Virus record (IMG/VR): IMGVR_UViG_3300021197_001217
Span: 1 to 42,556 of that record
From: a virus
Length of the DNA: 42,556 nt
Direction: 5' to 3' (one strand)
Part shown: positions 1,585-30,370 of the stretch, one piece after another
How the letters are laid out: every line of letters starts with the position of its first letter
How positions within the stretch are numbered: position 1 is the stretch's first letter
Translations under genes and position numbers: made by a program
Notes under the pieces: generated by a model
The model's database searches: none
What the model saw: the letters and a program-made list of their open reading frames with translations, nothing else
What the model was told of the DNA's origin: nothing

Positions 1585-1612
1585 AATATAACATGTTTTA
1601 AGGTGCTGTCAA
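1585..1612 (-). promoter_or_regulatory. Predicted sigma70-type promoter before thyX
   Basis: On the minus strand TTGACA (1612-1607), a 16-base spacer and TATATT (1590-1585) are followed by ACTAC. The -35 box lies inside the last codons of the methyltransferase gene. The same box and the same spacing occur before the endonuclease, helicase and recombinase genes. Confidence 0.75.
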
Positions 1613-2668
1613 CTCTTCTAGAATAGCCTTGGAAAAATGGGGAGGAAAACACTCACCCAATACTTTTCTAATGAAACCCTCCTTATAAGAGGTGTAGTTA
1701 TTAAGCCAATTAGCGGGAAGACCAATAAGCAGAAGAATTTCCCTAACAGTTAGTACTCTAGCATCAGAATAAGTACCATCTGGTAATAAGCTTCCTGGGT
1801 GGACATTATTTTGTGAACTAACAGAGCCATTAGCCATGGTAATAGTAGGAGCCGGTTCATCCCATTTTATTCTGCGATAAGTTGTCTTAAAACCTTTGAT
1901 CTTCCTCAAAGTGTTGGTGTCCTTGTCTATGATTTGAGGATAATGAATTTTATTATCAAATGCTGTTTTGCCCTCTGGTGTGTTTTTCATCCATAGAATG
2001 TGATTCTGATTATGCTTCTTAGCTTTATGCCATAAGATACCTGAATCCTGTTCACTTTCTAGTGAAGGAAGGTGCCCAATTGCATCTCTAACGGTAGTCT
2101 GAGACCCTTTTGGTGTTGTAGGGGTTGGCCATTTAATTTCTTTCTTTTTTGAAAGTAAAGTTATCAACCTTTTTCTATTGTGTGGGGTTGAATAATCAGA
2201 AGCATTTAGAACTTTGTAGTCAAAGTTATAATCATTATGGATATTGGTCTTAATAAAGTCTATAATTTTTATTGTATTATTGTTGTGACTAATGAATGTA
2301 TTCGCCATCCCAGGGACATTTTCAATTAACACATATTCAGGTTTTAAGATATTAACTGCCTCAATGACTTTTTTGATTAGAGAGTTTCTAACATCATTTT
2401 TATCGCTTCTTTTTGCATTTGCCATCGACATACCTTGGCATGGCGGTGTGGCAATGATTAGTTCTACTCCTTCTGAGGCCTTCATAATTTTATTGAAGAT
2501 CGCCGGATCTGTTACATCACCACAAATCATATTTGTATTTGGATACAACAACCTGTAAAATTCTGCTCTGTTCTCCATCAACTCGTTGGCGACCACAACC
2601 TCAATTCCTATTTGAGACAGGTATGCTTCTGAGATCCCTATATTACTAAATAATGATAATGCTTTCAT
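1598..2668 (-). CDS. DNA cytosine-C5 methyltransferase
   Basis: This 356-residue enzyme transfers a methyl group from S-adenosylmethionine to C5 of cytosine. Visible motifs are motif I near the N-terminus (ALSLFSNIGISEA), motif IV TPPCQG at 74-79 with catalytic Cys77, motif VI ENV at 116-118, motif VIII NRKRL at 164-168, the RVLTVREILLLIGLP segment of motif IX and a GECFPP motif X. The region between VIII and IX is the expected target-recognition domain, so the recognised sequence cannot be read off. The start overlaps the end of the preceding endonuclease-like gene by ATGA, which suggests a coupled modification/restriction pair. Alternatively it simply protects phage DNA. Confidence 0.95.
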   Translation of the reverse strand: MKALSLFSNIGISEAYLSQIGIEVVVANELMENRAEFYRLLYPNTNMICGDVTDPAIFNKIMKASEGVELIIATPPCQGMSMANAKRSDKNDVRNSLIKKVIEAVNILKPEYVLIENVPGMANTFISHNNNTIKIIDFIKTNIHNDYNFDYKVLNASDYSTPHNRKRLITLLSKKKEIKWPTPTTPKGSQTTVRDAIGHLPSLESEQDSGILWHKAKKHNQNHILWMKNTPEGKTAFDNKIHYPQIIDKDTNTLRKIKGFKTTYRRIKWDEPAPTITMANGSVSSQNNVHPGSLLPDGTYSDARVLTVREILLLIGLPANWLNNYTSYKEGFIRKVLGECFPPHFSKAILEELTAP

Positions 2669-3438
2669 TTTCTAACTCCTAAGAATGTTTCTAAGTCTTT
2701 AAGACTCATATTGAATTGCATATTGTGATATGCAGCACATTTGCCAGAACCTTTCATTTGTAAAGTCATCGGACCAAACTCTATGACAGAGTTACTTGGT
2801 CTTACTTTTACTTTTATTTTATAAATATTTTTGATAATACTTTCTATATCATATTCAACTATGGAGTCAATATTATTCTTTTCTCTTGCCCATACCATCT
2901 GCTTGGCTATTGTCTCTGTATTAACTGGATTATTAAAGCCAGTAGAGAGAACAAATTTATAGATATTTTCTAGATTATCTTGAAACCAGTCGGTTACTTC
3001 TGAAAAGTTAGTAATAGAACTACATAAGAGTCTAGATCTCATCAACTCTTTTTTTAGAGAAAGACTGGTGGTGTTGACTCCCCACTCTTTACAGACATCT
3101 TTAAAGACTGCGGGGTTATTTTTAAACCCATTTCTGTGGTGGAGGCTTGGATGATTGCCAACAAATTGGCTAAGCTGACTATAAACCTCTTGAGGAGGTT
3201 TTAAGAGTTTACTAAACCTTTCAACTGAACAAACTTGTACTTGTATTGATGTATTATATTTGCTTGGGTTCTTGATAGACTTGTTATTGGTAGTGTCTGA
3301 CTTCGATATGGTTATTCGTTGACCCCAGATATCATGTTGATTTTCTGGCTTATCTACCAAGTATTTCGCTCGGTATTTTTTCTCAAACCTATCTCCGTCT
3401 TCTTTGCCTTTTTTACCGGCAAGAACTCTGTTAACCAT
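2665..3438 (-). CDS. Putative type II restriction endonuclease partner of the methyltransferase
   Basis: This gene encodes 257 residues starting MVNRVLAGKKGKEDGDRF. The ATG at 3438 is chosen because GGAGG precedes it by five bases; an upstream start would cross the promoter. The gene overlaps the C5 methyltransferase start by four bases. The C-terminal part reads IEFGPMTLQMKGSGKCAAYHNMQFN, with an acidic residue, a QxK triad and a GxGK...N.QF ending. That resembles the active-site strand and following loop of PD-(D/E)XK restriction enzymes that use a QxK variant. Gene position and this motif are the basis for the call. No family match could be run. A phage DNA-processing protein of another kind remains possible. 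Confidence 0.5.
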   Translation of the reverse strand: MVNRVLAGKKGKEDGDRFEKKYRAKYLVDKPENQHDIWGQRITISKSDTTNNKSIKNPSKYNTSIQVQVCSVERFSKLLKPPQEVYSQLSQFVGNHPSLHHRNGFKNNPAVFKDVCKEWGVNTTSLSLKKELMRSRLLCSSITNFSEVTDWFQDNLENIYKFVLSTGFNNPVNTETIAKQMVWAREKNNIDSIVEYDIESIIKNIYKIKVKVRPSNSVIEFGPMTLQMKGSGKCAAYHNMQFNMSLKDLETFLGVRK

Positions 3439-3458
3439 TGTGCCTCCGTCGAGACAAC

Positions 3459-3486
3459 AATATAGCACGCTGGGACTAGCTGTCAA
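3459..3486 (-). promoter_or_regulatory. Predicted sigma70-type promoter before the endonuclease/methyltransferase pair
   Basis: TTGACA (3486-3481), 16 bases, then TATATT (3464-3459) on the minus strand. The -35 box is embedded in the last codons of the amidase gene. The preceding bases CTAGAAGAG are shared with the thyX promoter context. Confidence 0.75.
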
Positions 3487-9359: not shown

Positions 9360-10328
9360 TTATTCTTTCTTCTTGTTGGCAGACTTCTTGCCCCAAGACT
9401 TTCCTTTGCCTCTTTCCTTGCAAGCTCCAGGCGTTGGTCTACATGCCGGATACTTCTTTCTGCCTTCTCCAGAGGAGCGACCACAGGATTTGTAGCCACC
9501 CTTACCATCAGGAGCATTACAGTCTACCCAGCCTTTCTTCTTGCCCTTAGCACCTTTACGACCAAACCAGTCTCTTAAAGAGGATTCTTTACTTGATTCA
9601 GTTCCTGCTTTCTTTTTTTTTTCATCAAGAACGACTTCAAGTTCTTCTCTGATAACCTGTCTTATATAACTGGGTGAGAATTCTTTCTGAATTGACTCAT
9701 AGTAGCGATTACTGTTGTGACTTCGTTGTCTACTCTTTATTGTACTTCTTATAAAAGTAATTATTCCTCTCGGTAGACCTATCTGAGTAACTACAGGTCC
9801 ATAGATATCTTCGTAATGATTTAAAACTTTATAAAGAGTGTCGGTTGAGATACTTGGATTCTTAATAACTACATAAACCAACTCATTGTATCCATCTCCT
9901 TGAAATAAGCCTCGGTCAATCGAAAGAATGTCACGTAAAAGACTATCAGGGTTATCACGTCTATAGGCGATAGATTTTAAAGTATCAACATCCTGAATTG
10001 AGAGCATTCCATGCCATTTTTTTGGCCCTGTCACAATCTGTTCTAAAGCATCTCTAAGTAACTCAGTTGTCGTATTTCGATTTAAAATCGCACTATTTCG
10101 ATATGTTTTGTCTTGAAGATATATTTTTATTAATTTAATGTCGCTAGTGGTATGCGCAATATGAAGATTTTGTTTAATAGTGTCAAATTCATCTTTACCT
10201 CTATAAAGAGAGGTGGAACGAGCAGGATCTTTTAGTGTAGAATCAAAAGAGGTGGATTGTGCTCTTGGATTGGCGACAACATCTCTTAACCTGTTATGTA
10301 TACTTTCGTTTTTTTTACTTCTATTCAT
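9360..10328 (-). CDS. Unknown protein with IREEL helix and Cys-rich basic C-terminal domain
   Basis: This gene encodes 322 residues. Residues 1-210 are helical and contain segments such as RRDNPDSLLRDIL and NPSISTDTLYKVL, which look like short helical repeats. An amphipathic helix YIRQVIREELEVVLDEKKKK follows at about 218-237. The last 80 residues are Lys/Gly-rich with paired cysteines (WVDCNAPDG, YKSCGR, YPACRPTPGACKERG). The same Cys pattern recurs in many large marine phages and algal viruses as I recall it, but I cannot name the family with certainty. The helix is encoded by DNA nearly identical to the end of the gene at 11313-11621. A possible role is DNA binding or an internal virion protein; both are inference. 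Confidence 0.75.
   Translation of the reverse strand: MNRSKKNESIHNRLRDVVANPRAQSTSFDSTLKDPARSTSLYRGKDEFDTIKQNLHIAHTTSDIKLIKIYLQDKTYRNSAILNRNTTTELLRDALEQIVTGPKKWHGMLSIQDVDTLKSIAYRRDNPDSLLRDILSIDRGLFQGDGYNELVYVVIKNPSISTDTLYKVLNHYEDIYGPVVTQIGLPRGIITFIRSTIKSRQRSHNSNRYYESIQKEFSPSYIRQVIREELEVVLDEKKKKAGTESSKESSLRDWFGRKGAKGKKKGWVDCNAPDGKGGYKSCGRSSGEGRKKYPACRPTPGACKERGKGKSWGKKSANKKKE
9613..9668 (-). repeat. Direct repeat copy 1 (encodes the IREEL helix)
   Basis: Together with 11317-11372 this is a 56-base direct repeat with three visible mismatches and an identical run of ten A residues (minus strand). It encodes the helix VIREELEVVLDEKK in both genes. Confidence 0.85.
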
Positions 10329-11312: not shown

Positions 11313-11621
11313 TTAATTTTTTTTTTCATCAAGAACGACTTCAAGCTCTTCTCTGATAACTTGTCTTACATAATCTAGGTTTTCATTCTTCTTATTAGAC
11401 TTGTTGCCCCAGTTGGCGGCACCAACCTTACGACACTTGACGAGAGCACCAGAAGCATAAGCAGAAGGCCACACTTTATAGCGAGACTTTACCTTGTTGT
11501 AGCAAGCATCTTTCTTGCCACCCTTCTTCTTCTTTTTCTTTTTCTTCTTACGCTTCTTTTCGTCTAAGTCTTCAATGACCTCAAGCAAGGCTTCAGAGAT
11601 TTCATCATATAAGTCTTTCAT
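11313..11621 (-). CDS. Poly-lysine, WPSAYASGALVKCR-type small protein with IREEL tail
   Basis: This gene encodes 102 residues. An acidic N-terminal helix (MKDLYDEISEALLEVIEDL) is followed by a run of lysines (residues 22-33). A compact domain ACYNKVKSRYKVWPSAYASG then ALVKCRKVGAANWGN comes next, and the end is an amphipathic helix YVRQVIREELEVVLDEKK. The WPSAYASG domain is one I remember from cyanophages and giant viruses, with no established activity. High basic charge suggests nucleic acid binding. The gene begins within the last codons of the 1148-residue protein gene (17-base overlap). Confidence 0.75.
   Translation of the reverse strand: MKDLYDEISEALLEVIEDLDEKKRKKKKKKKKKGGKKDACYNKVKSRYKVWPSAYASGALVKCRKVGAANWGNKSNKKNENLDYVRQVIREELEVVLDEKKN
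11317..11372 (-). repeat. Direct repeat copy 2 (encodes the IREEL helix)
   Basis: This is the partner of 9613-9668. Mismatches fall at three positions that are all synonymous or conservative. The ten-base homopolymer at the end is identical. Confidence 0.85.
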
Positions 11622-14600
11622 TTAAAATATTCTCCATTTCAATAATTAGTGAATCTATTTGTTTAAGATTCAGCATTTCGTTAACAGGCGATGATGACGG
11701 AATCTTAAAGTCTATTTTTTTAGGCCCTGGGAGGGGTCTACCTTCTTTTTCGAGTCGTCTTTTCACAAAGTCTGGTGTATGTGGATTTTGATCGTGGAGA
11801 CCAGCACCAAAGATTTGCGATATACCCCTGGCAAGCTCTTGTAAAGACATGTCGGCAAAAACTTTCAAATCTTCTTGAGACATAGATTCGGGGAAAGGAA
11901 CATCCTCCTTATTAGGATTATAAACATCATAGATAGCTTGAAAGCTTGGAAAAAGCCTAGTTTGTCTTCGTGATAAGGTCCTTTGAATTGAGCCAGATCC
12001 CTTATTAATAAGCGTATCTGAAACATCCTCAATTAATTGCTTGGCAAAGCCCTCGACAATGATTTCGTAGTCGAGCCTTAATCTTCTCAAATTGTCATTC
12101 TGTTCTAAGGTGACACCAGTTCCTTGTTTAAGAGTTTTAGTAACTAAAAAGTCTGCTTGTGCATAATTTGTTAATGCTTCAACAAATGCTGCGTCCTTAA
12201 GTTTTTCTTGAATACCGGATACAATCATATCAGATACACCAGCTTTTCTAGTTTGATAAAGTTTATTTGTAACTTCATTAACAACTGTGATGGCAATACT
12301 TTGTAGATTACCCCCCTGTGCGACTTTAAACGGTGTAATAAGCTTTTTGAAGTCTAGATCACTAAGTGTATCGATTTTGATCTTTCCGGCGCTTATCTCT
12401 TCATCAGTGTAGGGCACATTAGTAAGATATTTAACGATAACGGCTGGTATAATAAAGTAACGTATAGTATCATTTTCTTCTTCGGACATTGCTCTCCCGC
12501 CAGCACCCAAGAGAGAAAAACTCTCATAATCGTCTTTTAAATAAAGTTTAAATATATTTATCACATTTTCTCGTGACCTTGCCTCGGAAGACTTAAATTT
12601 TGATATCAAGGTTTTGTAAGCTTCGACCATCATGAACTTAAAACCTTGCCAGAACGCGCCTTCATGCATCACACCAAAAATTATTAGATTGGCAAGCAGT
12701 CTATTTTTAATGAATTTCTCGATGACAACAGAAATTTCTTCGCTGTCAACCTTTTTTTGAGAAATAAAACTATTAAATACCGACTCATACTTTGAATCCA
12801 GCACTCTTTTTACCGACAGTTTGGAAGGAAGCGCAAGATCAGAATAGGTTGGTTGGTTGAAATCATGATTTGTATTATAAATAATATTTTTCTTCATTAT
12901 CAATGATTTAAGTTTAGCCCCAGTCAAACCTCTGTCTGCTCCATGTTTCAAAGTGTTATCAAAAATATTAACTACATCGATAAAAGTGCTATTGAAGAAT
13001 ACCGCCTGAGTTCTCTCGGAGGGATGTATTGTTCCTGAATCTTGTAAATCAGCTACACCCTCAATGCCAAGATATCTCCATATCGTGTTCCACAAAGCTG
13101 GTACTTTTTTAAAGCCAACACCACTGGTGGGGGATCGTCTTTGGGACCTTTCGCCAGCCAAGTTTCTTGTTATGTTCCACAAAAACCCATAAGGACTTTG
13201 ATTTCTTGATTTAGTCATCAAAGAAACAATCTCTTTAGAATTAATTAGCTGTTCAGCGGAGGGATTGTAAAACCTCTCTACCAGGCCATCGTAAACATCT
13301 CTATCGATCTGTTCCCTCGCGACGTGACTCATTCTCGTCTGCAAGGTGTGAAGTGCTTCTCTCTCCTCGGCTGAAAACTCTTCTTCTGAATTGGGCTTCT
13401 TCGTAGATTTTTTTATCATATCAATCAAGATATCATAGTTACCTCTCATAAAGTAATGGAAATCTACTAAGGGCCCCATACTTTTAACAGGCTGGTCAAA
13501 CTCTTCGTCATGATAGAAGGATAAATCCAAGTTGTTAAGGATATTGGAATTTTCAAAAACCTCAAACGGATAACTTAAAATATATTCACTCTCTGTCATT
13601 TTCCTTACTTCTCTGGTTACAGAGACTCTCAACCTGCTGGGGTGGAAGAGGGCTCTACCAAATTTTACGAACATTACAATTTTTTGTACTTCTTTTATAC
13701 TCTTGACATCTTCAGATAAACTGCGTAATTTGGCCAAAAGCTTAGAAAGACTCTGCCACATGACTTGGTGCTTCGGGGGCCCGGCTTCGCCCGAGCCGCT
13801 GCCCACCGCGACCCCGCTGCTTAATTCCTGTTCAACATCATAAACTAGTTCATAGATCGGTGACAGCGCTGGAACGCCTCGCATCACGGCCCGCCGCAGG
13901 TCCATCAAGATGGACTGTTCAAGTGTGTCTGTATAGGCCTTTCTCATACAATAGATGATATGATCTTTAAAGCGTGACTGGAGAGTTTCACCTTCCAGTG
14001 GCTCAGCCATAACAATTTCAGGTTTAAGGTTTTTTTTGACTTGTCTAATAAACTCTAAGAGTTCTGAAATTTCTTCTGGTCGATATTTGCTTGATTTAGG
14101 TTCTATGAAGAGCATAGCTTTTCTAGAATTTTCAATAACACTCAAGACCACACCGTGCATAGCTGTTGTTATATCTGGAATATACACCGAACTACGTGGA
14201 AGGCGGAGTGGGGAGCGGGGAAGTACTTTAACCATTGCTGATAGTAGCCTCAAAGTCCCAGGATCCAGCGAGATGTCGCTTGTGCCTAAGTCTGAGACTA
14301 AATCTTTAAACTTTTTTAAGTCTAACTCATCATTAAGGCCTATTCTAGAATAGCCAGCTTTTTTGGCACTATCAATAATTGTTTCTTTCTCTAGTTTTTG
14401 AACTAAATCTTTGCCAATGAAATAATCTTCTATCTGGGTATTTTTAATTTTTTTTCTTATCGGAGAATCTTTGGAGAATAGCTTATGGACATACATTTTA
14501 AGCTGTTCCCCGCCCTCTTGCCCTAGGATATCATCAATAGGTTGAGATGTGGTCACGCGAAGGCCCGAAGACATGGTCGCGAAGTCATCGATTTCTTCAT

Positions 14601-15051
14601 AATAAGATGGTTTTTGTACCTGAAGTATTTTGCTATAGTCTTTTGGCTTTAGTAGTCCTACAAATGGCGATTTCTGTGCAAACCCATGCCCACCAATCCT
14701 ACCATCAACCAAGGTACGAAATATTTCAGGTGTAAGTGGATAGGTATAAATACCATTAGGGGTATCATAGCGAGATTGTGGATTGACTCCAACTTTTGAC
14801 TGGGGTGGTGATCTTTTTTTACCTTCGCCATCGAGAGGGCTATCTTTTAGCCCTCCCATATCACTAATAAATGTAATGTAATACATTTTACTGGGGTCGT
14901 CGGTAACATACCTTGAGAGCTTTTGTTCTAAGGTTTGTTCTGCCTGTGCATAGTCCTCGGGACTAATCCCTCCTTTCTTTTTCAGCTTCTTGGCCCTCGT
15001 GGCCTCTTCAATTGGAATAGAGTTTAACCAATGATCGATAAAATTTGACAT
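11605..15051 (-). CDS. Very large protein of unknown function (1148 aa), possibly virion-associated
   Basis: The ATG at 15051 follows GGGAGAAAAC; an upstream TTG in frame is rejected. The N-terminus MSNFIDHWLNSIPIEEA is a short amphipathic helix. Residues about 55-150 carry YYITFISDMGG, VGVNPQSRYDTPNGIYTYPL and AQKSPFVGLLK, a pattern I remember from uncharacterised phage proteins. The rest is mainly helical with no enzymatic motif I can recognise. A Gly/Ser linker at about residues 410-427 is encoded by unusually GC-rich DNA (13769-13820). The C-terminus LKQIDSLIIEMENILNERL resembles the helix found in the next genes. Size and neighbours are compatible with an internal head or ejected protein, but this is not shown. 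Confidence 0.8.
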   Translation of the reverse strand: MSNFIDHWLNSIPIEEATRAKKLKKKGGISPEDYAQAEQTLEQKLSRYVTDDPSKMYYITFISDMGGLKDSPLDGEGKKRSPPQSKVGVNPQSRYDTPNGIYTYPLTPEIFRTLVDGRIGGHGFAQKSPFVGLLKPKDYSKILQVQKPSYYEEIDDFATMSSGLRVTTSQPIDDILGQEGGEQLKMYVHKLFSKDSPIRKKIKNTQIEDYFIGKDLVQKLEKETIIDSAKKAGYSRIGLNDELDLKKFKDLVSDLGTSDISLDPGTLRLLSAMVKVLPRSPLRLPRSSVYIPDITTAMHGVVLSVIENSRKAMLFIEPKSSKYRPEEISELLEFIRQVKKNLKPEIVMAEPLEGETLQSRFKDHIIYCMRKAYTDTLEQSILMDLRRAVMRGVPALSPIYELVYDVEQELSSGVAVGSGSGEAGPPKHQVMWQSLSKLLAKLRSLSEDVKSIKEVQKIVMFVKFGRALFHPSRLRVSVTREVRKMTESEYILSYPFEVFENSNILNNLDLSFYHDEEFDQPVKSMGPLVDFHYFMRGNYDILIDMIKKSTKKPNSEEEFSAEEREALHTLQTRMSHVAREQIDRDVYDGLVERFYNPSAEQLINSKEIVSLMTKSRNQSPYGFLWNITRNLAGERSQRRSPTSGVGFKKVPALWNTIWRYLGIEGVADLQDSGTIHPSERTQAVFFNSTFIDVVNIFDNTLKHGADRGLTGAKLKSLIMKKNIIYNTNHDFNQPTYSDLALPSKLSVKRVLDSKYESVFNSFISQKKVDSEEISVVIEKFIKNRLLANLIIFGVMHEGAFWQGFKFMMVEAYKTLISKFKSSEARSRENVINIFKLYLKDDYESFSLLGAGGRAMSEEENDTIRYFIIPAVIVKYLTNVPYTDEEISAGKIKIDTLSDLDFKKLITPFKVAQGGNLQSIAITVVNEVTNKLYQTRKAGVSDMIVSGIQEKLKDAAFVEALTNYAQADFLVTKTLKQGTGVTLEQNDNLRRLRLDYEIIVEGFAKQLIEDVSDTLINKGSGSIQRTLSRRQTRLFPSFQAIYDVYNPNKEDVPFPESMSQEDLKVFADMSLQELARGISQIFGAGLHDQNPHTPDFVKRRLEKEGRPLPGPKKIDFKIPSSSPVNEMLNLKQIDSLIIEMENILNERLI

Positions 15052-15065
15052 GTTTTCTCCCAACC

Positions 15066-18126: not shown

Positions 18127-18176
18127 CAGAGCGTTCCTCTGCGACTGGCTTAAACCCCTAAAAGCAATTAGGGGTT
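18127..18176 (-). other. Hairpins in the SSB leader
   Basis: On the minus strand AACCCCTAA/TTAGGGGTT (18176-18168 and 18161-18153) forms a nine-pair stem that includes the stop codon of the upstream gene, without a U tract. A small CAGAG/CTCTG stem (18127-18141) follows. It may be an mRNA processing or autoregulatory structure, or a weak terminator. Confidence 0.4.
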
Positions 18177-19007
18177 AGTTTGTATTGCATTAGTAAGGGC
18201 AATGCAAAACCCGAAATCATTTTCTGTTTTAGACTCATATATTGCATATGAGAGATTTTTAAAAGCGTTTCTTGGTTTGTTTTTTAAGGTATCTACCAAC
18301 TTCTTGTGGAGAGTACCATCTGTTTCCAAGCGGTCGCTCGTTATGCACACATAGTAACAGGTGTCACGGGCCATGTCAAGGTCATAGAACATTTTTTCTG
18401 ACAGGTTCTTTGGATTGATCAATCCAAATGTTCTGATTCTTTGGACCTCTGCTGGGCTGTTGAGATTACCGATTAGTGGCTTCTTATTAGCAAAGTAATT
18501 CATGTAATGAATCACGTAGTAAATAGTCTGGTTAAGGGTCAAAAAGTAGTTTTTGACCGGCACATTACCAATTATTTCTTCGACTTTTGTGTTGGAAATA
18601 ATGGTCATATTCTTAAATAAACCAGATCTTGTGTATTCTTGGAGGATACCAAATACTGCGTTTTCTTGCAGCTTGGCTTGGCCAGCCAAAAGCTCGATAT
18701 CAGGCTTAATATAGAAAATTTCTACATTTTTATCTTTAACTTGCTCAAGAATACCTAAAGCATAGTTAGCTGAGAAGGAGGACCCACAGAGGATGACCTG
18801 TATATGATCAGAGATGGCAGTCTTACATGCCGTCAGGTCGGGAATGTGATTTTCACATTGTTCAGGAGTTGACGCGGACTCTAACTGAATATGGTTGTCT
18901 GCATTCTCCTCTTGGGTCGAGAAGGTTAAGATATTATAGTTTTTATGCTCTTGAAACAGGGAGGCAATGTTTTTACCTGCCGTTCCGATACCAAAAATAG
19001 TAATCAT
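18168..19007 (-). CDS. Degenerate tubulin/FtsZ-like protein
   Basis: This gene encodes 279 residues. The order of segments follows the FtsZ fold: MITIFGIGTAGKNIASLF (compare FtsZ IKVIGVGGGGGNAV), ILTFSTQEE (VNTDAQ strand), IQVILCGSS followed by a helix and strand NVEIFYIKPD (compare GMGGGTGTG...LTVAVVTKPF), and MTIISNTKVEEIIGN (compare LITIPNDKLLKVLG). A long helix and a C-terminal CYYVCITSDRLE...SYAIYES...GFCIALT sheet complete it. The GGGTGTG phosphate loop is replaced by CGSSFSA, and the T7-loop NxDxxD is not intact, so GTP hydrolysis is doubtful. It overlaps the polymerase gene by four bases. The role is unknown; a replisome-associated or host-FtsZ-interacting role would be inference. Confidence 0.55.
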   Translation of the reverse strand: MITIFGIGTAGKNIASLFQEHKNYNILTFSTQEENADNHIQLESASTPEQCENHIPDLTACKTAISDHIQVILCGSSFSANYALGILEQVKDKNVEIFYIKPDIELLAGQAKLQENAVFGILQEYTRSGLFKNMTIISNTKVEEIIGNVPVKNYFLTLNQTIYYVIHYMNYFANKKPLIGNLNSPAEVQRIRTFGLINPKNLSEKMFYDLDMARDTCYYVCITSDRLETDGTLHKKLVDTLKNKPRNAFKNLSYAIYESKTENDFGFCIALTNAIQTNP

Positions 19008-20206: not shown

Positions 20207-21364
20207 TTACCTTCCATTTTTTCTTACTAAAGAGCTTAACCCATAGGGATTGTTTGGCAATGATTTAATCTTATTTTCAAAGGTTGAAAGAAAAGTATTG
20301 AGATTCAAGTTAAAATCTTTTGTTTTCTGTAGGAAAAGATTGAATTCTTTTTCTTCTAAAGAATTATACCTCTCTTCATTTTTTCTTAAAAAGGCATAAA
20401 ATCTTAAATATTTCTCTCTATTAGAGAATCTAGTTTCTTCTTTCAATTGGCTTCTTGTTTTTAGAGGTAAGCCATTTTTTCTTGTAGTTAGATTCTTATA
20501 CAGACTTAGGATTTTTTCAAAAGTTAAATCATAATTTGATATATTTATACTTCTAAAACTTGTTGAAAATACTTGCTCTGTTGAGTTTATTCCGTAAGCA
20601 GATGCATACTTTAACATAATTGGTGACGCCAAATCAGCATATAATCTGTTGGGTGCATTTCTGTCAACCAAAAATCCATATTGCCTTGCAATTTCAACTA
20701 TTAACGGATAGTTGGGATCGGAAAGAAAAACATCTTCTTTCTCTTGGTCAACCGACAGATCTATGTTAGAAAATTGGACTGATAGTCCGCAAGACATTGG
20801 ATCTTGTTGTATACTTTTATGGAAGGCTACAAAACTATAAGGACTGTTAATTGCAAAATCTAAAATAAAAGGAGATACTTCTTGAAAAAAAGAATCAAAA
20901 TCAGTAATATTTAAAATTTTATTAGTTTCATATAGCTTATCTATAAAGATTTGATTCATTTGTATGGTATAGTCTTTATGGTTAGAAAACGGATCTGAAT
21001 AGCCTCGGTGAAACACCAGAGACTGTAGCTCACTGTCTGTTTGTCTAACCTTGTTGGCTGTCAAGGCTTGTTTCATAAATTGTCTGGTCATTGCATTTGC
21101 TGCATCTGCAACAAAATTAACTGCTCGCATTGGCCGACGTGTTTGATCAAAGCCCCTAAAGTCAGAAATAGAGTTTTTTTGAGGTACAACAAGATTTTGT
21201 CTTGTATCTATTCTGCCATAAAGACGTAATTCTCCTAAAGAGAAATCAGTTACATGATCAGTTCTTACATCAAGATTTCTAAAAGAGTTTATTGAATAAT
21301 TTGCTCTATCAAAGAAAGTTTTTAATGACTTATTAGAATTTTTACCATCAAATTTCCTACTCAT
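20207..21364 (-). CDS. Virion structural protein of unknown function
   Basis: This gene encodes 385 residues, mostly helical, with many Phe, Asn and Lys residues. It contains FVADAANAMTRQFMKQAL and YGFLVDRNAPNRLYADLASPIML. It lies directly after the putative baseplate hub gene, with a TAATG stop/start overlap, and before the polymerase, so it is the last gene of the tail block. I recognise no domain. A baseplate component is the most likely reading from position, but this is inference. Confidence 0.65.
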   Translation of the reverse strand: MSRKFDGKNSNKSLKTFFDRANYSINSFRNLDVRTDHVTDFSLGELRLYGRIDTRQNLVVPQKNSISDFRGFDQTRRPMRAVNFVADAANAMTRQFMKQALTANKVRQTDSELQSLVFHRGYSDPFSNHKDYTIQMNQIFIDKLYETNKILNITDFDSFFQEVSPFILDFAINSPYSFVAFHKSIQQDPMSCGLSVQFSNIDLSVDQEKEDVFLSDPNYPLIVEIARQYGFLVDRNAPNRLYADLASPIMLKYASAYGINSTEQVFSTSFRSINISNYDLTFEKILSLYKNLTTRKNGLPLKTRSQLKEETRFSNREKYLRFYAFLRKNEERYNSLEEKEFNLFLQKTKDFNLNLNTFLSTFENKIKSLPNNPYGLSSLVRKNGR

Positions 21365-24351
21365 TAGGAAGCCTCAGTTTGTGCATTTCTGACTTCTGGT
21401 ACACCGCAACCATCAGTTGCGGTTACATCATAGGTCGCTTTGTCGGTAGCACCACTGGAAACCCATTTAGCACTAACAGTAGTATCAAACTGACCCTCGG
21501 CAATAATTGAATCTACTTTTGTAATTAGGTGATAACCACCAATTCCTAAAAGATGGGCTATAGAAGCCTGCTGAACCTGTTGTCCTTTGCCACCACTGTT
21601 GGTGGGGTTACCCAAGGAAGGAGAGATCCCTACTGGATTCACAAAGATATACATACCGGGGTAAAGCTGAACATTACCAAACATCTGTATCGTGATATCA
21701 TATGCTTCTCTCAACTGTCCTAAACCATCCACACCATCTCTTTCAAATCTTGCTTCTTTAACATATTTCTGATCTGTCTTAGAGAAAGATATGTTCTTGA
21801 CAAGCCCTGAATTAGCACCTATATCAAAGTGATAGATACCTTTCTCGTGATCTTCCTCCCTGTTGCCTCTCAATTGAGGAACTCTGGTTGTTGCATAATA
21901 GATTAAATAAGTATATTCATCACCACTATTAGAACGCTTAGATTGCTTTAACAAAGGACGAGTGTTGATATCGTTTGCAATATCATGATTACTTGTTATC
22001 ACAGCATTTCTTAAAATTAATTTATGATCTCTGTCTCCACCAAGACACTTCTCAGGAGAGAAAAGATTTCTGACGAAATCATTCATAAAATCACTTAAAA
22101 ATTGAAAAAGTGTATACTGGCTAATTCCCTCTTTGATTGTTTTAGACATCAAAAACTCAGCAAAGTAAGTAAGAGATATTGGAATATCACCAATATTCAT
22201 TTCATAACCACCCCTTGTCGGAAGATTTATGATAGAAGGGCCAAGTATTACTCTTATTTTTTTAAATTGTTCATAGTGTATTTCTATATCATTTCTGCCG
22301 TTTTTTGTTTTACTTAAAGATAATTCAATCTTGTTGATAACAACATCAAGAATATCACTTAAATATATGTAACTAACAATTACTCCATCTGGAGTTAGTG
22401 CAGGGATTAATGAACCTGATTCACTATCGCCACTGTCGCCGGCTTGTTTAGCATCTCGACTGGCTTTTTCTATAGCTGTGGCAATCTTGTTACCTGCACC
22501 TGTTGTATAATTGGTTACTTCCATATTGTAGGCATCGCCAGTTTCTTTTATGTCTCTATAATCGACAGTTAAATGAGTAATTTTACCAGTCTTATCAAGA
22601 TCTCTTAGAATACTTGTTAAGGCTATTTCCTCTTGCTTATCAATTTTTTTAATTGCTTCTTTTTTGTAAGCACTGATTTTCTCGTTTTTACATCCTTTAT
22701 CTCTTTTGGCCCTTTTGATGACATCATCATAATCGAAAAGTTCTCTGTAAAGATCTTCAGTAGCTAGAATGTTGGAATAAACCGCACCAGTGATAGAATC
22801 AATATAAGCTCTATAGTCAATTTCTACTTCTACTTGTCCTTGTTCTCCAACATTAATTGTATGTGTGACAGGAATAAGTTGAACAGTAATCGATGAATTT
22901 AAGATAGCCTCTTTTACTTTTTTTTGAGGTGAAGAAAAATCAGACAAAACTTGATTGCCGCCTAACTCACTCCAACCAAAGACGGCTTTTAGTCTATAAT
23001 TTCTAGGATTTGGATCTAGCTGGTGAGAACTTCTGTGTGACTTTATTGTGCTAGGAGTTTTCATCATCAGGTCGATGAAACGAAATCCACTATCTACAGA
23101 CTCAAAACCAGGACCATTTTGTTCCGTGACAGTAACCCTCCTGCTTCTTAGAAGTTCCTCAAAGGAAGCAAAGAATAGCTTAAGCTTAGATTTTATGTTT
23201 CTTTTAGCTGTGAAAAAGTTATTACCATCGAACTCCATTGTCATGGACTTCATCCCAGCACCAATACTACGAGATCTTCCTAGCGGGTAAGTCTGAGCTA
23301 CCTCATATACACCCAGGAAAGAGTCTATCTCGTCTTTTGTGGTGTGAGTGTTCATAATTATTGGAACATCTGCCTCCCTACCATCATCATCAATAAAGAC
23401 CTTGTAAAGCTCTATTGACGGAGTAAGGCCAGAAAGCTGTGCAGGAGTAATGTTAAAAATTTGTTCATAATTCGGAGGTTTTACTAGCTGATTGACAAAA
23501 CCATCAGGAGAATAATTTTCGACACTACCAAGTTTAAAAACTTTTTTTGATGGATTTTCTGAAGAAACACCAGGAAGCTTATTTGTATATTTAATTAAGA
23601 AGCATTGCTCCTCAAAGCGCTTTTGTTGTGCAATTTCTTCTGGAGTTGGAGGAGGATCATTGATTATATCTAAAATTGGTTGAACGTCATTAAGACTAAT
23701 GGAACCATCTTGGTCAATATCAGAAATATCTCTTAACTGTTCAGTTTTTTCACCGTTAAAAATACTCTCATCTGGTTCTTTTGAGTCATATTTATCGAAT
23801 AATTCTTCTGTTGCATCCCACAACTTTTTACCACATTTATCGAGTCTCCTATAGGACGCTCCTGAACCAATTTTTCTTTCCCTAACAACAGTATACAGAG
23901 AGCTTTGTTTCACTTGCTCTGTAGCCTCACCATAAGCTTTTTCTGCAGCCTCAGAAGAATCCATATACTGTGAGTAAGCTAGAATTTTTCGATTAGAAAA
24001 GTCTTCTATTTGTTTATCAAGGTCTGATACTTCTTTGGGGATGTCCAAGTCCCCACCGCTGTCTTTACAGTTGACAGTTAGTCTGTCAGTTATGGAGGCC
24101 TGGCCCATAGCGGCCGTAGAACTACTGATATCTCTATATTCAAAAACGTTATTTTTGGAAAACTCTGTATCTTTTTTGGTTCTATGACCATTAAGTGCAG
24201 TTTCTGCCTTTATCTCTATTCCTTTGCTGACAACTTCAGCAGTTCTACTTGTACCATCGATCGTTCTGTTCTTAAGGGCTTGTACTCTAGTGGCAGTTGT
24301 GTTATGGCGGCCTAGCTTATGTTGTATATCAAACTTAGTGTCAACACTCAT
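21364..24351 (-). CDS. Large baseplate hub-like protein with EF-hand/dockerin-type calcium motif
   Basis: This gene encodes 995 residues. The C-terminal part resembles phage hub or tail-spike-hub proteins: GVDGLGQLREAYDITIQMFG, LYPGMYIFVNPVGI and IGGYHLITKVDSIIAEGQFDTTV, a pattern of hub beta domains ending in a strand that projects toward the tail tip. A calcium-loop motif DIDQDGSISLND is at 211-222, with Asp at 1, 3, 5 and 12, Gly at 6 and Ile at 8, as in dockerin repeats. It sits between the LysM-type gp53-like protein and another structural gene, with TGATG overlap. No lysozyme domain is visible. The hub assignment is from position and pattern. Confidence 0.6.
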   Translation of the reverse strand: MSVDTKFDIQHKLGRHNTTATRVQALKNRTIDGTSRTAEVVSKGIEIKAETALNGHRTKKDTEFSKNNVFEYRDISSSTAAMGQASITDRLTVNCKDSGGDLDIPKEVSDLDKQIEDFSNRKILAYSQYMDSSEAAEKAYGEATEQVKQSSLYTVVRERKIGSGASYRRLDKCGKKLWDATEELFDKYDSKEPDESIFNGEKTEQLRDISDIDQDGSISLNDVQPILDIINDPPPTPEEIAQQKRFEEQCFLIKYTNKLPGVSSENPSKKVFKLGSVENYSPDGFVNQLVKPPNYEQIFNITPAQLSGLTPSIELYKVFIDDDGREADVPIIMNTHTTKDEIDSFLGVYEVAQTYPLGRSRSIGAGMKSMTMEFDGNNFFTAKRNIKSKLKLFFASFEELLRSRRVTVTEQNGPGFESVDSGFRFIDLMMKTPSTIKSHRSSHQLDPNPRNYRLKAVFGWSELGGNQVLSDFSSPQKKVKEAILNSSITVQLIPVTHTINVGEQGQVEVEIDYRAYIDSITGAVYSNILATEDLYRELFDYDDVIKRAKRDKGCKNEKISAYKKEAIKKIDKQEEIALTSILRDLDKTGKITHLTVDYRDIKETGDAYNMEVTNYTTGAGNKIATAIEKASRDAKQAGDSGDSESGSLIPALTPDGVIVSYIYLSDILDVVINKIELSLSKTKNGRNDIEIHYEQFKKIRVILGPSIINLPTRGGYEMNIGDIPISLTYFAEFLMSKTIKEGISQYTLFQFLSDFMNDFVRNLFSPEKCLGGDRDHKLILRNAVITSNHDIANDINTRPLLKQSKRSNSGDEYTYLIYYATTRVPQLRGNREEDHEKGIYHFDIGANSGLVKNISFSKTDQKYVKEARFERDGVDGLGQLREAYDITIQMFGNVQLYPGMYIFVNPVGISPSLGNPTNSGGKGQQVQQASIAHLLGIGGYHLITKVDSIIAEGQFDTTVSAKWVSSGATDKATYDVTATDGCGVPEVRNAQTEAS

Positions 24352-25703: not shown

Positions 25704-28631
25704 TTAGTCTTGCTCCAAGTCGAATGCTTCGCCAACTATTGTAATTACTTTCTTCCTGAAAACTGTTTCGCCCATGTTGAAATTAACGAATACATCTTGT
25801 CTTTTAACTGTTCGTGTTCCACCTCCACCTCCACTGCCACCTGCTGCTGCACCAGCCGTTCTGGTGGCAGCACTAGCTATTCGTTCAGTTATGTTTCTAG
25901 TTGCGGTAGTATTAACAACGGTAGATGCAAGAGCGGTTGTAGCCATAGTTGCTGAAAGTGCCATTGCCTTTGTGGTTGGAATCTCATCAATAGCATTAGC
26001 AATTTCTCTGAAAGAATCAGCAACCGCTGTTAGTTTGCTTGCTTCTGCCGAAGCTATACTTGCGACCAAAGATGATATCGCTTGAAGTTTAGCACCGGGA
26101 ACAAGTGCGAGAGCAACAGAGAAGCCCATTAAGGCAGTCGCTAACCCACCAAATCCGAACATAATTGATGGTAAGAACAAGGCCAAAGGAGCTATTGAGT
26201 AGATGAATAACGTGAGTGCTGCCATCTTAGCAAAGTCAATTGCATCCATTAATGTTCCAAACGAGTTGGCAATCATCTGTATACCAAGCCCAAACAAGGA
26301 CATTCCGCCACCTGCCATTAAGACAGCAGCACCTATTGCCAAGAATACTCCAGCAGCCGCGAGACCAAGACCTGAATAGACTAGGATTCCTACGACAGCT
26401 ATGACAGCAATCATTCCTACTGCGAGAATCCCTAATGACATTATGAATGCATTCATCGCTTCACCGCTCAATGTATTCAGCATCTCTCCCATTCCAGATA
26501 GAGAATCAACAAACATTGACATTGCTAAGAATGCACCAGCAAGAGAAAGCATAACAGCAACAATTGCAGGAGCAGCCTTATAGAATGATTTAGAGGATTT
26601 ATCTAGAGCTTTCCCTAAAGCGATAAAAGCAAATCCAAGAAGTATAATACCTAAGAAAAGGCTTGGTGGGTTAAAAGCGGTTGCAAATAATATAGTACCA
26701 AGGGCAAATGCAGCAGCAGCAATAATTGCCATTTTTGCTGCACTCCCTTTTTGTGACATGTTCAAGAAATTTTGAGCAATGGCCATAGCAAAAGTAGCAG
26801 TTCTAAGGCCCACTAGCGCGGGTAAAATAGCTTTAATTGCACCTGGATATTCTAAAAAGAAGCCCAGTAAATTACTAAAGCCATCTACTAGAACCATAAT
26901 TGGTCCTCCTGGGGCGGCAGCAGTTGCCAACATTGCATTTAGTTTTTCTTGAACAGAGGCTAGGTGAGCAGCAGCCTCAGCTTGTTTGATATAATCGTCA
27001 GATGTTTGTTGAGTCATGCCGGACAGTTTTTCTGTATTACCAGATAGAACGAGGGCCAACTCACCAACATCTTTGAGACCCATCGCTTCTGTATATGCAA
27101 GCTTCTGGTAATAACTCATAGAATCAAAGGAAAGGCCCGCATTTGTAATAGAATCAGCAATTGCATTGAAACGATCTGCTGGGCTTTCCATCATCATGAG
27201 ATCGATGGCATTAACAAAGTCACCGCCAAGAAGAGCATTAAGCTTGCCGACTTGACTTGCTGCACCTTCAAATGTATCAAACTGATCTGTTATCTGAAGT
27301 ATCTTGGTCATCTCAAGACCAGTAATCTTAGAAACTCTAGCAAGATCTTTAAAGGCAGTTTCCATATTTCTAACTTTTGAGATTTGTGGCTGCAAGCTGG
27401 CAAATTGCTCAGAAATCATGCCAGGAGCCATTCCAATATCTTGAGCGAATGCTGTTAGCTCTCTTGCAAAGGCGGCAGCTTCTGTTGTGCTTTGACCTAA
27501 TATCTTGGTTTGGTTTTGAATAATCGTAGCAAAAGTCTTGGTTTCCACTCCATACTGCTTTAGCATTGTGGCATTTTCGCCAAGCTCTTTTCTTTGAGCC
27601 TGCGTGACGAAAGAAAAGTCTGTGAATGTTGTAAAGAGATCACCGTAAGCTTTGCCTATTATTGCAGCGTTACCACCAAACTGTGAGGTTGACTCAACGA
27701 GTGCTCTGATATCTTTATCGGCACCCTCCATAGCACCACCACCACCGGTCAAACGTCTAAAGCCTGACTCTGCACTATCGATAGCCATTGCCATTTCATA
27801 CATCTTATTAACAATAGTAGAAATACCCTTGTTAAGTTTAGCTGACGACATATTGAGCAAATCAAAAGAATTAACAGAAGCCATTAGCATCTTAGGTAAG
27901 GCACCAATTCCATCTCTTCCAAGAGATATAGCAATGTTATCTAGTGTATCGGCCTTAGTATTTAAAAGCCCTAGTCTTGTTAGGATAGCATCGTTAGCTT
28001 TTAGAGTAGCGCCATCGATTCCTTCTGTTGTTCTTTTAATTGCTTTTAAAGCTTTATCTGCAATTTCCGCCTCAAGGCCAAAGTCTCTAACACCATCAGT
28101 TAATTTGATTTGTTCTATGTTTAAGTCTTCAAACTGCTTTTGTAGTTCGTCTACATTTTCGTTATTTTGTTTTCTCTCTTCAATTTCTTTTGCCAGATCT
28201 ATTAGCTTTTTTGCGGCAGTATCATTTTGTAATTTTGCATTTTCTTTGTTTAAGTCAGCAGCAACTTTGTCAAGCTCTAACATTCGTCTAGACATATCAA
28301 GTTGAATTGTTTTAGACTTGGTGCCTTCTTGAATTGCTTTGTATTTGTCTTTTAATATATTAAAAGAGTTAGCCTCGGCTTTGGCACCATCCCTGATACT
28401 TTCAACAAACTTTTTGTGAAGAGCCTCAGATTCGGAAATGGTATCTCTTAATCTCTCCATTGTTAAAAGCTGTTCAGATAACTCTTCGCGCACTTCTGTT
28501 GTTAAAGAACTAACCTTATTAATATTTTTTAGCTGTTCAGCATCAAGACCTATCAAAAGTTCTTTAATTTTTTGAACTTCTCTTAAACCTTTTAACTGTT
28601 CCTTAATAGATTCAATGTCTTTATCAGCCAT
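25704..28631 (-). CDS. Tail tape measure protein
   Basis: This gene encodes 975 residues. The first 250 are charged coiled-coil-forming helices (IKEQLKGLREVQKIKELL). A middle part follows, typical of tape measures (AMAIDSAESGFRRLTGGGGAMEG, TSQFGGNAAIIGKAYGDL). Residues about 600-860 contain several long hydrophobic helices, such as AAMAIIAAAAFALGTILFATAF and GMIAVIAVVGILVYSGLGLAAAGVFLA, that would enter the host membrane. The C-terminus has a GGSGGGGG linker and a short tail. It lies directly after the chaperone pair and a terminator, the standard place for this gene. The start has only a weak ribosome-binding site (GAGG). Confidence 0.9.
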   Translation of the reverse strand: MADKDIESIKEQLKGLREVQKIKELLIGLDAEQLKNINKVSSLTTEVREELSEQLLTMERLRDTISESEALHKKFVESIRDGAKAEANSFNILKDKYKAIQEGTKSKTIQLDMSRRMLELDKVAADLNKENAKLQNDTAAKKLIDLAKEIEERKQNNENVDELQKQFEDLNIEQIKLTDGVRDFGLEAEIADKALKAIKRTTEGIDGATLKANDAILTRLGLLNTKADTLDNIAISLGRDGIGALPKMLMASVNSFDLLNMSSAKLNKGISTIVNKMYEMAMAIDSAESGFRRLTGGGGAMEGADKDIRALVESTSQFGGNAAIIGKAYGDLFTTFTDFSFVTQAQRKELGENATMLKQYGVETKTFATIIQNQTKILGQSTTEAAAFARELTAFAQDIGMAPGMISEQFASLQPQISKVRNMETAFKDLARVSKITGLEMTKILQITDQFDTFEGAASQVGKLNALLGGDFVNAIDLMMMESPADRFNAIADSITNAGLSFDSMSYYQKLAYTEAMGLKDVGELALVLSGNTEKLSGMTQQTSDDYIKQAEAAAHLASVQEKLNAMLATAAAPGGPIMVLVDGFSNLLGFFLEYPGAIKAILPALVGLRTATFAMAIAQNFLNMSQKGSAAKMAIIAAAAFALGTILFATAFNPPSLFLGIILLGFAFIALGKALDKSSKSFYKAAPAIVAVMLSLAGAFLAMSMFVDSLSGMGEMLNTLSGEAMNAFIMSLGILAVGMIAVIAVVGILVYSGLGLAAAGVFLAIGAAVLMAGGGMSLFGLGIQMIANSFGTLMDAIDFAKMAALTLFIYSIAPLALFLPSIMFGFGGLATALMGFSVALALVPGAKLQAISSLVASIASAEASKLTAVADSFREIANAIDEIPTTKAMALSATMATTALASTVVNTTATRNITERIASAATRTAGAAAGGSGGGGGTRTVKRQDVFVNFNMGETVFRKKVITIVGEAFDLEQD

Positions 28632-28696: not shown

Positions 28697-28918
28697 TTAT
28701 AAATTAGATGGTGGTCTGGGTTGATTAAATGCAGACAATTCATGAGTTTCAGAGTTGTCGCCAGAGCCCTTAGACGCCTTTTCTACTGCTTCCTTCTCAT
28801 CATTAAGCTGCTTTACCAGTCTGTTCATGAACCAAGTTCTGAGGCCTACAGGGAGGTTGTATGCCTCTATAAATGACCAGTTGCCCGAGTATTGCAGAAA
28901 GAAAAACTGTTCATACAC
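28697..28918 (-). CDS. Second tail assembly chaperone segment (probably made mainly by frameshift)
   Basis: The frame from the GTG at 28918 encodes 73 residues (VYEQFFFLQYSGNWSFIEAY...). The frame is open further upstream to 28960, and the extra residues GLTPEYIEN read as a natural continuation of the helix, so the GTG may not be the true beginning. A +1 (or -2) ribosomal frameshift on the T7 run in the preceding gene would fuse this segment to the gp26-like protein. This would be comparable to lambda G/GT chaperones. The C-terminus is charged and disordered. A terminator follows. Confidence 0.6.
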   Translation of the reverse strand: MYEQFFFLQYSGNWSFIEAYNLPVGLRTWFMNRLVKQLNDEKEAVEKASKGSGDNSETHELSAFNQPRPPSNL

Positions 28919-28931
28919 GTTCTCTATATAT

Positions 28932-29783
28932 TCAGGAGTCAGGCCAAAAAAAGTCCGCTGTCATCGGCACCTCCATGTCTTGGGTATATTCGCAAGACGG
29001 GCACTCGAAGGTTTGGGAGGTATCTACATTGGGATTGGCTAGCTTATAGGCTGAGCGTAGATGTCTGGAGTCCATAGTAGGCATTCTTTCAATAAGCATA
29101 TTAATTGAATCAGGATCTTCTAGGCCAGCAACAGATACAATCATTGTCTGGAGTTGTCTAGTGATGTTGTGCTCTGCACCTTTAGACTTTTGATCCTTTT
29201 CCATGCCCTTAACAATCTTCTTTTCATCGTGACCATTCATTAGTTTAAACTCTACATCAATCTCAAGGACTGGTAGGGTAACCATGAAGGTACCTCTGTC
29301 TGTTTTTTGAAGACTAAGGCTTGAAGCATCTTCACCATAATAAACATTATCTAAATCAAGAGTAAAGTTAAACTTAGATGTCTCTCCACAAGAAGGACAA
29401 GTAACAGAAGTTTTGTAGTCTGCACCATAAGCTGCTACTCTGGTGGCCATAATGATTGCATTACGATCACCTGTAAGCAAAGTGTTTGCATCAATATTGG
29501 TATCAAGAATAATATTCTTTAATACTCTATCAATAGCAATACCCTTCTTAAGGAGAGAACGAGAAGTAAGAATGTCCTCTTCTTTTGCCGTCATATGCTT
29601 GATTTCTATTGTCTCTTCACCATGTAAAGGATGATTCGGAGGATAGAAAAGCCCACGACTGGGCAACTCCACATGTTCTGTAGGAGTAACAAATGATAGT
29701 TTTTCCGCAAGTTGCTCTGCCGTCATTTTACCAGCAGGGGAGGGAGAGCCGGATGCTCCGACTCTATCCGTATTGTTTCTCAA
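28932..29783 (-). CDS. gp26-like tail assembly chaperone / baseplate hub assembly protein
   Basis: This 283-residue protein belongs to the T4 gp26-like group: VELPSRGLFYPPNHPLHGEETIEIKHMTAKEEDIL followed by IDRVLKNIIL, LLTGDRNAIIMATRVAAYGADY and a C-x2-C pair (VTCPSCGE). A second C-x2-C (FECPSCEY) lies near the C-terminus, so a zinc site is likely. It is placed between the tube and tape measure genes, the normal position of tail chaperones. Near its end GAC TTT TTT TGG provides a seven-T slippery stretch leading into the next frame. Without a shift it ends WPDS. T4 gp26 is described as a hub assembly protein; here the chaperone role is inferred from position. Confidence 0.8.
   Translation of the reverse strand: MRNNTDRVGASGSPSPAGKMTAEQLAEKLSFVTPTEHVELPSRGLFYPPNHPLHGEETIEIKHMTAKEEDILTSRSLLKKGIAIDRVLKNIILDTNIDANTLLTGDRNAIIMATRVAAYGADYKTSVTCPSCGETSKFNFTLDLDNVYYGEDASSLSLQKTDRGTFMVTLPVLEIDVEFKLMNGHDEKKIVKGMEKDQKSKGAEHNITRQLQTMIVSVAGLEDPDSINMLIERMPTMDSRHLRSAYKLANPNVDTSQTFECPSCEYTQDMEVPMTADFFWPDS
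28943..28955 (-). other. Candidate programmed frameshift site (seven-T run)
   Basis: On the minus strand GGACTTTTTTTGGC lies 10-20 bases before the stop of the gp26-like gene. A +1 slip (TTT T to TTT) or a -2 slip gives GGC CTG ACT CCT, in frame with the downstream segment. A -1 slip gives TTG GCC TGA and stops at once. Confidence 0.6.
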
Positions 29784-29809: not shown

Positions 29810-30370
29810 CTAGCTAAAGTAGCTTGTACTGTTTGAATCAATCATACTAGCAAAGTCATAAGCAACAGAAAGCTTGTAAGTGGTAAGTTCATCATTACCA
29901 TATGCAATGGAATCCCCGTAAGTTATACCCTTACACATAGCATTTTTAAGAGTCCACTTCTCGATTTCGTTACCTTCTGCATCTACCTGAGCAATAATTA
30001 AGTCGCCCATGGCGGAAACAGCGCCAGACTTTGAAACAGTGGCAAGAGCCGCACCAGTGCCAGCAGCAGCAGGGACTTGATAACCAGATTCAGTCCAGAG
30101 TTTAGATAGGAGACCGGCAGCGTCCACATCCTGCGGATCAACAACAGTAAGGTCAATATCATTCCAAGTGACAGTGCCTGGGAACTTAAACTTATGATTG
30201 AGATAAGAGTGCTCAGCCACGTTGACAGTAAAGGACGGCTTTGTAACCTCCTTAGCCCACCAAACAATCGGCTCTGTCCCGCTAGCGTTGGTTAATTGAA
30301 CATAGAACCGAAAGTTTCTCTTTGGGTCTTTTGCTCCAGATAGTTTATAATCAGAACTCCAGAATGGCAT
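29810..30370 (-). CDS. Tail tube protein (T4 gp19-like)
   Basis: This 186-residue protein forms the inner tube of the contractile tail. The N-terminus (PKRNFRFYVQLTNASG, VWWAKEVTKPSFTV) and the middle (FKFPGTVTWNDIDLTVVDP) follow the tube fold of T4 gp19. The C-terminal YGDSIAYGNDELTTYKLSVAYDFASM is also typical. It follows the sheath gene as in T4 and precedes the chaperone genes. The start has AGGAG eight bases upstream. High expression is expected. Confidence 0.93.
   Translation of the reverse strand: MPFWSSDYKLSGAKDPKRNFRFYVQLTNASGTEPIVWWAKEVTKPSFTVNVAEHSYLNHKFKFPGTVTWNDIDLTVVDPQDVDAAGLLSKLWTESGYQVPAAAGTGAALATVSKSGAVSAMGDLIIAQVDAEGNEIEKWTLKNAMCKGITYGDSIAYGNDELTTYKLSVAYDFASMIDSNSTSYFS

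Follow-up and report, generated by a model that had tools for sequence, protein, structure and literature searches.

Probable +1 frameshifting in T4 gp26-like genes and a putative pair of short and long tail assembly chaperones

A gp26-like gene and the frame that runs across its end

In a virus genome sequence of 42,556 nucleotides (IMG/VR record IMGVR_UViG_3300021197_001217, the whole of which is referred to here as the window), a gene resembling T4 gene 26 ends just after a run of seven T, and an open reading frame of 82 codons in a different register runs across its stop codon. This arrangement raises the question of how the second frame is translated, whether from a start codon of its own or by ribosomes that change frame at the T run, and, if the latter, in which direction they would move. 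The gp26-like gene (28932-29783, minus strand) starts at TTG, encodes 283 residues and terminates at TGA (28934-28932), its 3' end reading GCG GAC TTT TTT TGG CCT GAC TCC TGA in the 0 frame and including the GAC TTT TTT TGG that a preliminary description of this DNA had picked out near the end of the gene. The T run (28946-28952, minus strand) consists of codon -1 (TTT, 28952-28950), the candidate P-site codon (TTT, 28949-28947) and one further T (28946), which is the first base of the 0-frame TGG. Skipping that single base leads, as previously described, into a +1 frame that is open from 28960 to a stop at 28699-28697 and reads FF|GLTPEYIENVYEQFFFLQYSGNWS across the junction; the extension itself (28700-28945, minus strand) begins with the codons GGC CTG. 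The -1 frame reads TTG GCC TGA and closes after two codons, also in agreement with the earlier account. The window contains two copies of the motif YTTTTTTGGCC, where 0.14 would be expected, the second copy (10017-10027, plus strand) lying antisense to a gene.

The earlier placement of the pair between tube and tape measure genes also stands. Upstream lies a gp19-like tail tube gene (29810-30370, minus strand; phrog_4542, E=1.6e-21), and downstream a gene for a 975-residue protein (25704-28631, minus strand) that is a tape measure by position and size; the gene at this position is annotated as such in the cultured relatives immuto, SP-15 and LIS04, and a long ORF begins less than 400 nt from the extension in 162 of 181 homologous loci. 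The short product matches PF12322 (T4_baseplate; E=2.5e-16, 60.5 bits against a curated cut-off of 24.5) and phrog_150 (baseplate hub; E=1.5e-20). For structure prediction the short form and the extension were folded as separate chains. The AlphaFold2 model of the short form (pLDDT 88.5) has Foldseek matches to baseplate hub and T4-like hub assembly proteins with E values down to 2.6e-18, while the extension (pLDDT 80) is predicted to form helices at residues 4-21, 25-29 and 33-60, and its model had no Foldseek match in the PDB. DUF6760 (PF20546) scores 14.1 bits in the window extension, below its curated cut-off of 27, and gives a similarly weak match in 29 of 32 relatives at E<=1 (best 5e-5).

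Elsewhere in the window, all on the minus strand, we observed a 279-residue protein (18168-19007) without a Pfam or PHROG match, whose glycine-containing N-terminus, MITIFGIGTAGKNIASLF, faintly recalls tubulin/FtsZ-like proteins; a C5-cytosine methyltransferase gene overlapping a 273-codon gene without a Pfam match (1598-3486), possibly a restriction-modification pair; and two very large proteins of 1152 and 995 residues (11605-15063 and 21364-24351) without Pfam or PHROG matches.

Slip site and upstream signal among homologues

When a viral collection was searched at the protein level from four +1-side starting points, the homologues obtained fell into three clades that are mutually about 30% identical. 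At the 326 loci with both parts, the extension lay in the +1 frame in 324 and in the -1 frame in two, and was in frame or separate in none. TTT TTT TGG accounts for 196 of the 252 unique +1 sites, followed by TTT CTT TGG (28), TTC TTT TGG (15) and, more rarely, CTT TTT TGG and TTT CTA TGG (three each). The in-frame A-site codon is TGG in 245; the remaining seven are TTT TTT TAC (two), TTT CTT TAC (one) and a set of other +1 sites comprising NCC CGA at three loci from phages of Gram-positive hosts and one further locus, L084. At 248 of the 252, YTT or CTA thus precedes TGG or TAC, and homologues without the slippery run, which the preliminary description had named as evidence against a shift, are the exception; equally, a +1 or -2 event, thought there to be unusual for a gp26 family, instead prevails among hundreds of relatives. 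All three clades keep YTT_TGG_CC almost without change, and their 0-frame stop lies 4, 5 or 7 codons downstream of the P site. The cultured phages Mel-JY01 and RM378 carry TTT TTT TGG and immuto carries TTT CTT TGG. RM378 is very divergent, and its extension was missed by the profile. An exact search at the DNA level alone, with GGAGGTNCCGCTNNNNGCGGACTTTTTTTGGCC, returned at least 120 matches, and among the matches listed all 80 showed the same arrangement, with an extension starting GL. Recurrence on this scale among homologues lies far beyond chance.

At the NCC CGA loci (SP-15, LIS04 and GXN1; L086, L087 and L089) the +1 extension is open and NCC_CGA, with a rare Arg codon, replaces YUU_UGG at the junction, which suggests that these phages of Gram-positive hosts use a different +1 slip site. 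A scan of genome contigs yielded a single relative, on a contig from an Erysipelotrichaceae MAG (L426) that is probably phage DNA, where the same gene pair stands in the +1 relation at GAA TTT TTT CGT CCT ACT AAA TAG.

Coding in the +1 frame is evident from the first residue of the extension onward, its consensus being GL[TS]xxYxExVYExFFxLKYxGGWSFxEAYNLPVGLRxWF, with GL first in nearly every member. In each of the three clades, synonymous constraint on the gp26-like gene reaches an internal maximum just upstream of the slip site, a peak equalled in the window's clade by the gene start. The constrained third positions in that clade fall in a Shine-Dalgarno-like GGAGGT (28969-28974 in the window, minus strand; nt -25 to -20, counted from the first base of the P-site codon), in a short CCGC/GCGG stem and in the GAC before the T run. 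The Glu codon within GGAGGT is GAG in 107 of 108 sequences, although GAA is more used gene-wide, and an SD-like 5-mer is present in 99% of window-clade sequences compared to 40% of synonymous shuffles. The hairpin (28955-28967, minus strand; nt -18 to -6; clade consensus CCGC-N5-GCGG) is encoded by CCG for Pro in 96 of 109 sequences and GCG for Ala in 87 of 94, well above gene-wide use, and 84.9% of cells are paired in the stem against 25-45% when it is slid. Mean folding stability relative to synonymous shuffles is z=-2.1 in this clade and -1.1 and -0.6 in the other two. As covariation, assessed from pair counts in the window clade, was not significant, the support for the hairpin consists of codon choice and folding z, and the window itself retains three of its base pairs (CCG/CGG). 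With the stem closed, about 6 nt instead of 19 would separate the SD-like element from the P site. Likely stimulators of slippage are the SD-like element and the hairpin of the window's clade, both with a putative mechanical role. Downstream of the slip site, apart from the dual-coding stretch and a few weakly constrained columns, there is little synonymous constraint, and for this reason we propose no downstream pseudoknot.

The Mel-JY01-like and immuto-like clades (L178-L338) have SD-like purine runs at about nt -37 to -27 from the slip codon, far beyond the distance at which a frameshift stimulator would be expected, and in the Mel-JY01-like clade we found no hairpin of equal clarity.

Competing explanations and the direction of the shift

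That the two frames are joined by frameshifting is, judged from sequence, close to certain; the other ways of accounting for the second frame fare poorly against the homologues. The extension could be a separate gene with its own start, GTG at 28918 in the window and ATG in many relatives, and indeed 90 of 109 window-clade sequences have an ATG, GTG or TTG within the first 14 extension codons, at codon 7 in 85 cases, while cyanophage gp51 is annotated as a gene in its own right. Such a start is nevertheless missing in the other 19 of 109 and in 49 of 55 and 34 of 41 sequences of the two other clades, so that a second protein beginning at the GTG, which the preliminary description had set against the shift, would leave most sequences of two clades without a usable start; the lack of conservation ahead of the GTG that it had likewise named is contradicted by the residues in question, conserved from GL onward and situated within a predicted helix that begins at residue 4. 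Together with a nucleotide signal located at the slip site and the presence of the same domain fused in frame in T4 gp51, this makes a separate gene very unlikely. Transcriptional slippage on the run of seven T, giving mRNAs with a changed number of U, would suit the window itself, yet it struggles with members reading TTC TTT TGG, TTT CTT TGG or CTA TGG, where no more than four T are consecutive, with selection against an eighth T, and with an upstream SD-like element that fits a ribosome rather than a polymerase; we regard it as extremely improbable. A sequencing or assembly error, to which a homopolymer on a single contig would be prone, has a negligible probability and is refuted by the homologues, since hundreds of independent contigs share the frame relation, as do cultured Mel-JY01, immuto and RM378.

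Given slippage, the same frame would be reached by moving one base forward or two bases back on the same U run, the latter adding one Phe (DFFFGLT instead of DFFGLT). In members with TTT TTT TGG, tRNA-Phe would re-pair perfectly after a -2 shift, such shifts are known in phage Mu (PMC5009743), and in two clades codon -1 never ends in C (the immuto-like members have TTT throughout, the Mel-JY01-like ones either TTT or CTT), which is compatible with -2 in those clades. The 15 unique TTC TTT TGG loci argue for +1, because a +1 slip keeps UUU on UUU whatever codon precedes it, whereas -2 requires UUU and would here place UCU in the P site; re-pairing after -2 in every member, as expected of a Mu-type shift, is thereby lost. 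All 109 sequences of the window's clade have TTT as their P-site codon, compared to 78% gene-wide, while codon -1 is nearly unconstrained at its wobble position (TTT in 97 of 109, 0.06 bits), close to background and with TTC tolerated. Moreover, the first base of the next codon, which matters for +1 alone, is T in all but 4 of 252 loci. Against +1 weigh the A-site UGG, which codes for an amino acid and, at 9.7 per 1000, is not particularly rare in the window, and the three CTA_TGG variants, which would re-pair poorly after a +1 slip. On balance a -2 shift appears improbable and +1 the likely direction, so that of the two events offered in the preliminary description -2 is disfavoured by the TTC TTT TGG loci and +1 favoured. 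The -1 direction appears to be guarded against: T at -4 precedes TTT TTT in none of 166 sequences, and the Asp beside it is encoded by GAC although GAT is commoner, from which it follows that both the -1 heptamer U_UUU_UUU and an eighth T are avoided.

We propose, with considerable confidence in the explanation as a whole, a programmed +1 frameshift that makes a short and a long chaperone. Most ribosomes would stop at TGA and release the 283-residue gp26-like short form; in a fraction of them, tRNA-Phe on the P-site UUU, with UGG waiting in the A site, would slip one base forward onto UUU, after which GGC would be decoded and translation continue into a long form; its helical C-terminal domain of 82 residues would need no start codon of its own. 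The upstream SD-like element, with the small hairpin in the window's clade, would stimulate the +1 slip, and the avoidance of U_UUU_UUU would suppress movement in the -1 direction. The two products would then act as a tail assembly chaperone pair on the tape measure encoded next to them. That slippage occurs, and how efficiently, we infer from the sequences.

Cyanophage relatives, T4 and known recoding systems

A related clade of cyanophages appears to use the opposite direction. In S-PM2 the annotated gp26 ends TCT TTT TTC GCA TAA, and the annotated gp51, with 57 residues, occupies a -1 frame that stays open upstream through the heptamer, so a -1 frameshift would be expected to yield the junction peptide LEGLQSFFRISMFYNNLENYYR; its tail matches phrog_634 (baseplate hub assembly catalyst), as though it formed a family of its own, and also the C-terminal part of phrog_150. 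All 58 unique relatives in this clade have the extension in the -1 frame, 57 of them with U_UUU_UUC, and their SD-like 5-mers mostly begin 14-16 nt before the first TTT (-16 to -14). Spacings near 14-16 nt favour -1 shifts, as in dnaX. By this analysis, the small gp51 ORFs of cyanophages and other T4-type phages would be -1 frameshift extensions of gp26. A gp51 is annotated as a separate small ORF in S-PM2 (L340:4125-4364) and at L421, L422 and L425. Two large phages with the same protein family (L085 and L090) have the -1 frame with U_UUU_UUC, so the direction of the shift has probably changed more than once.

T4 gp26 and gp51 both match PF12322 (8.8e-64 and 3.9e-52) and are, on this comparison, paralogues: gp26 ends at the junction, while gp51 continues and carries the extension in frame. 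In hhalign comparisons, a profile built from the cyanophage extension aligned with the C-terminus of gp51 at E=7.4e-10 and with the +1 extension at E=8.9e-8, and it ranked seven of seven gp51 proteins over every other ORF of their loci. Direct hhalign comparison of the +1 extension gave no match to single T4 sequences and a weak one to gp51 profiles, and the link to gp51 runs through the cyanophage -1 extension. T4-type phages thus appear to arrive at a G/GT-like short and long pair by shifting +1, by shifting -1 or by duplicating the gene. A still broader reading is that T4-type contractile phages generally pair a short and a long chaperone, with evolution switching between +1, -1 and duplication while keeping the same domains, and that the window clade's +1 shift is driven by a split SD, brought near by the hairpin, acting on elongating ribosomes; we offer this combination tentatively, doubting it slightly more than we believe it.

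A literature search covering openly searchable papers met no description of this gp26-type frameshift; the main paper on tail frameshifts is reportedly that of Xu et al. (2004). Nor did we meet an earlier description of a split-SD stimulator acting on elongating ribosomes. Its likeness is to the split ribosome binding sites of T4 genes 38 and 25, where a hairpin formed between the SD and its target brings the two closer, from 22 to 5 nt and from 27 to 11 nt, respectively (PMC3014915), although those act at initiation and here an elongating ribosome would be affected. A 2024 tool paper (PRFect) states that no general forward-shift (+1) motif is known (PMC10885494); the loci described here offer a large natural set of one such motif, YUU_UGG, along with a related clade of opposite direction and different SD spacing. 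A further parallel is prfB (RF2), which has a P-site CUU or UUU followed by U, a +1 slip and an upstream SD-like element; among the gp26-like genes, 28 unique loci have CTT_TGG. The re-pairing P-site codon is shared, but prfB has a stop codon in the A site and its SD about 3 nt upstream, as opposed to UGG and 19 nt in the window, and in the other +1 clades the SD-like element lies farther away still. Shifts of +1 have been reported in structural or tail genes of HSTV-2, Listeria phages PSA, A118 and A500, and SPP1 (PMC5009743; PMC6316719). Those of the Listeria phages and SPP1 are CCC-based sites in major tail or capsid genes and differ in this respect, whereas the HSTV-2 tail chaperone is described as very likely +1 and is likened here by that description.

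The short and long products are probable tail assembly chaperones, because gene position, paired products and helical extension parallel lambda G/GT; T4 gp26 and gp51 are themselves listed as hub assembly chaperones (PMC3004832). The HK97 tail assembly chaperone 2ob9 was fourth in the Foldseek PDB list for the short form, with the highest probability there (0.28) and a target TM of 0.52, at a non-significant E=1.9. As in lambda, the gene stands between tube and tape measure, a conserved slip site lies near the end of the first ORF, and a long product with a C-terminal extension would arise by frameshifting; lambda differs in using -1, and the family here is that of T4 gp26/gp51 (PF12322). A two-gene tail chaperone in 0305phi8-36 was described as recapitulating G/GT by paralogous genes without a frameshift (PMC2147016), a likeness drawn from the description, in which neither PF12322-type membership is shown nor frameshifting relatives described. 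G-T frameshifting was reviewed in 2016 as widely conserved "except T4" (PMC5009743), and our findings would fill this gap in an otherwise widespread feature of long-tailed phages. They also imply that many phage annotations are incomplete, listing gp26 alone, a small separate gp51 or an unannotated gap. In T4 itself two separate genes make a shift unnecessary, but gp26 ends where its relatives would change frame and gp51 has the extension, which assigns a testable role to gp26 and to the essential but little understood gp51, those of short and long form of a single chaperone.
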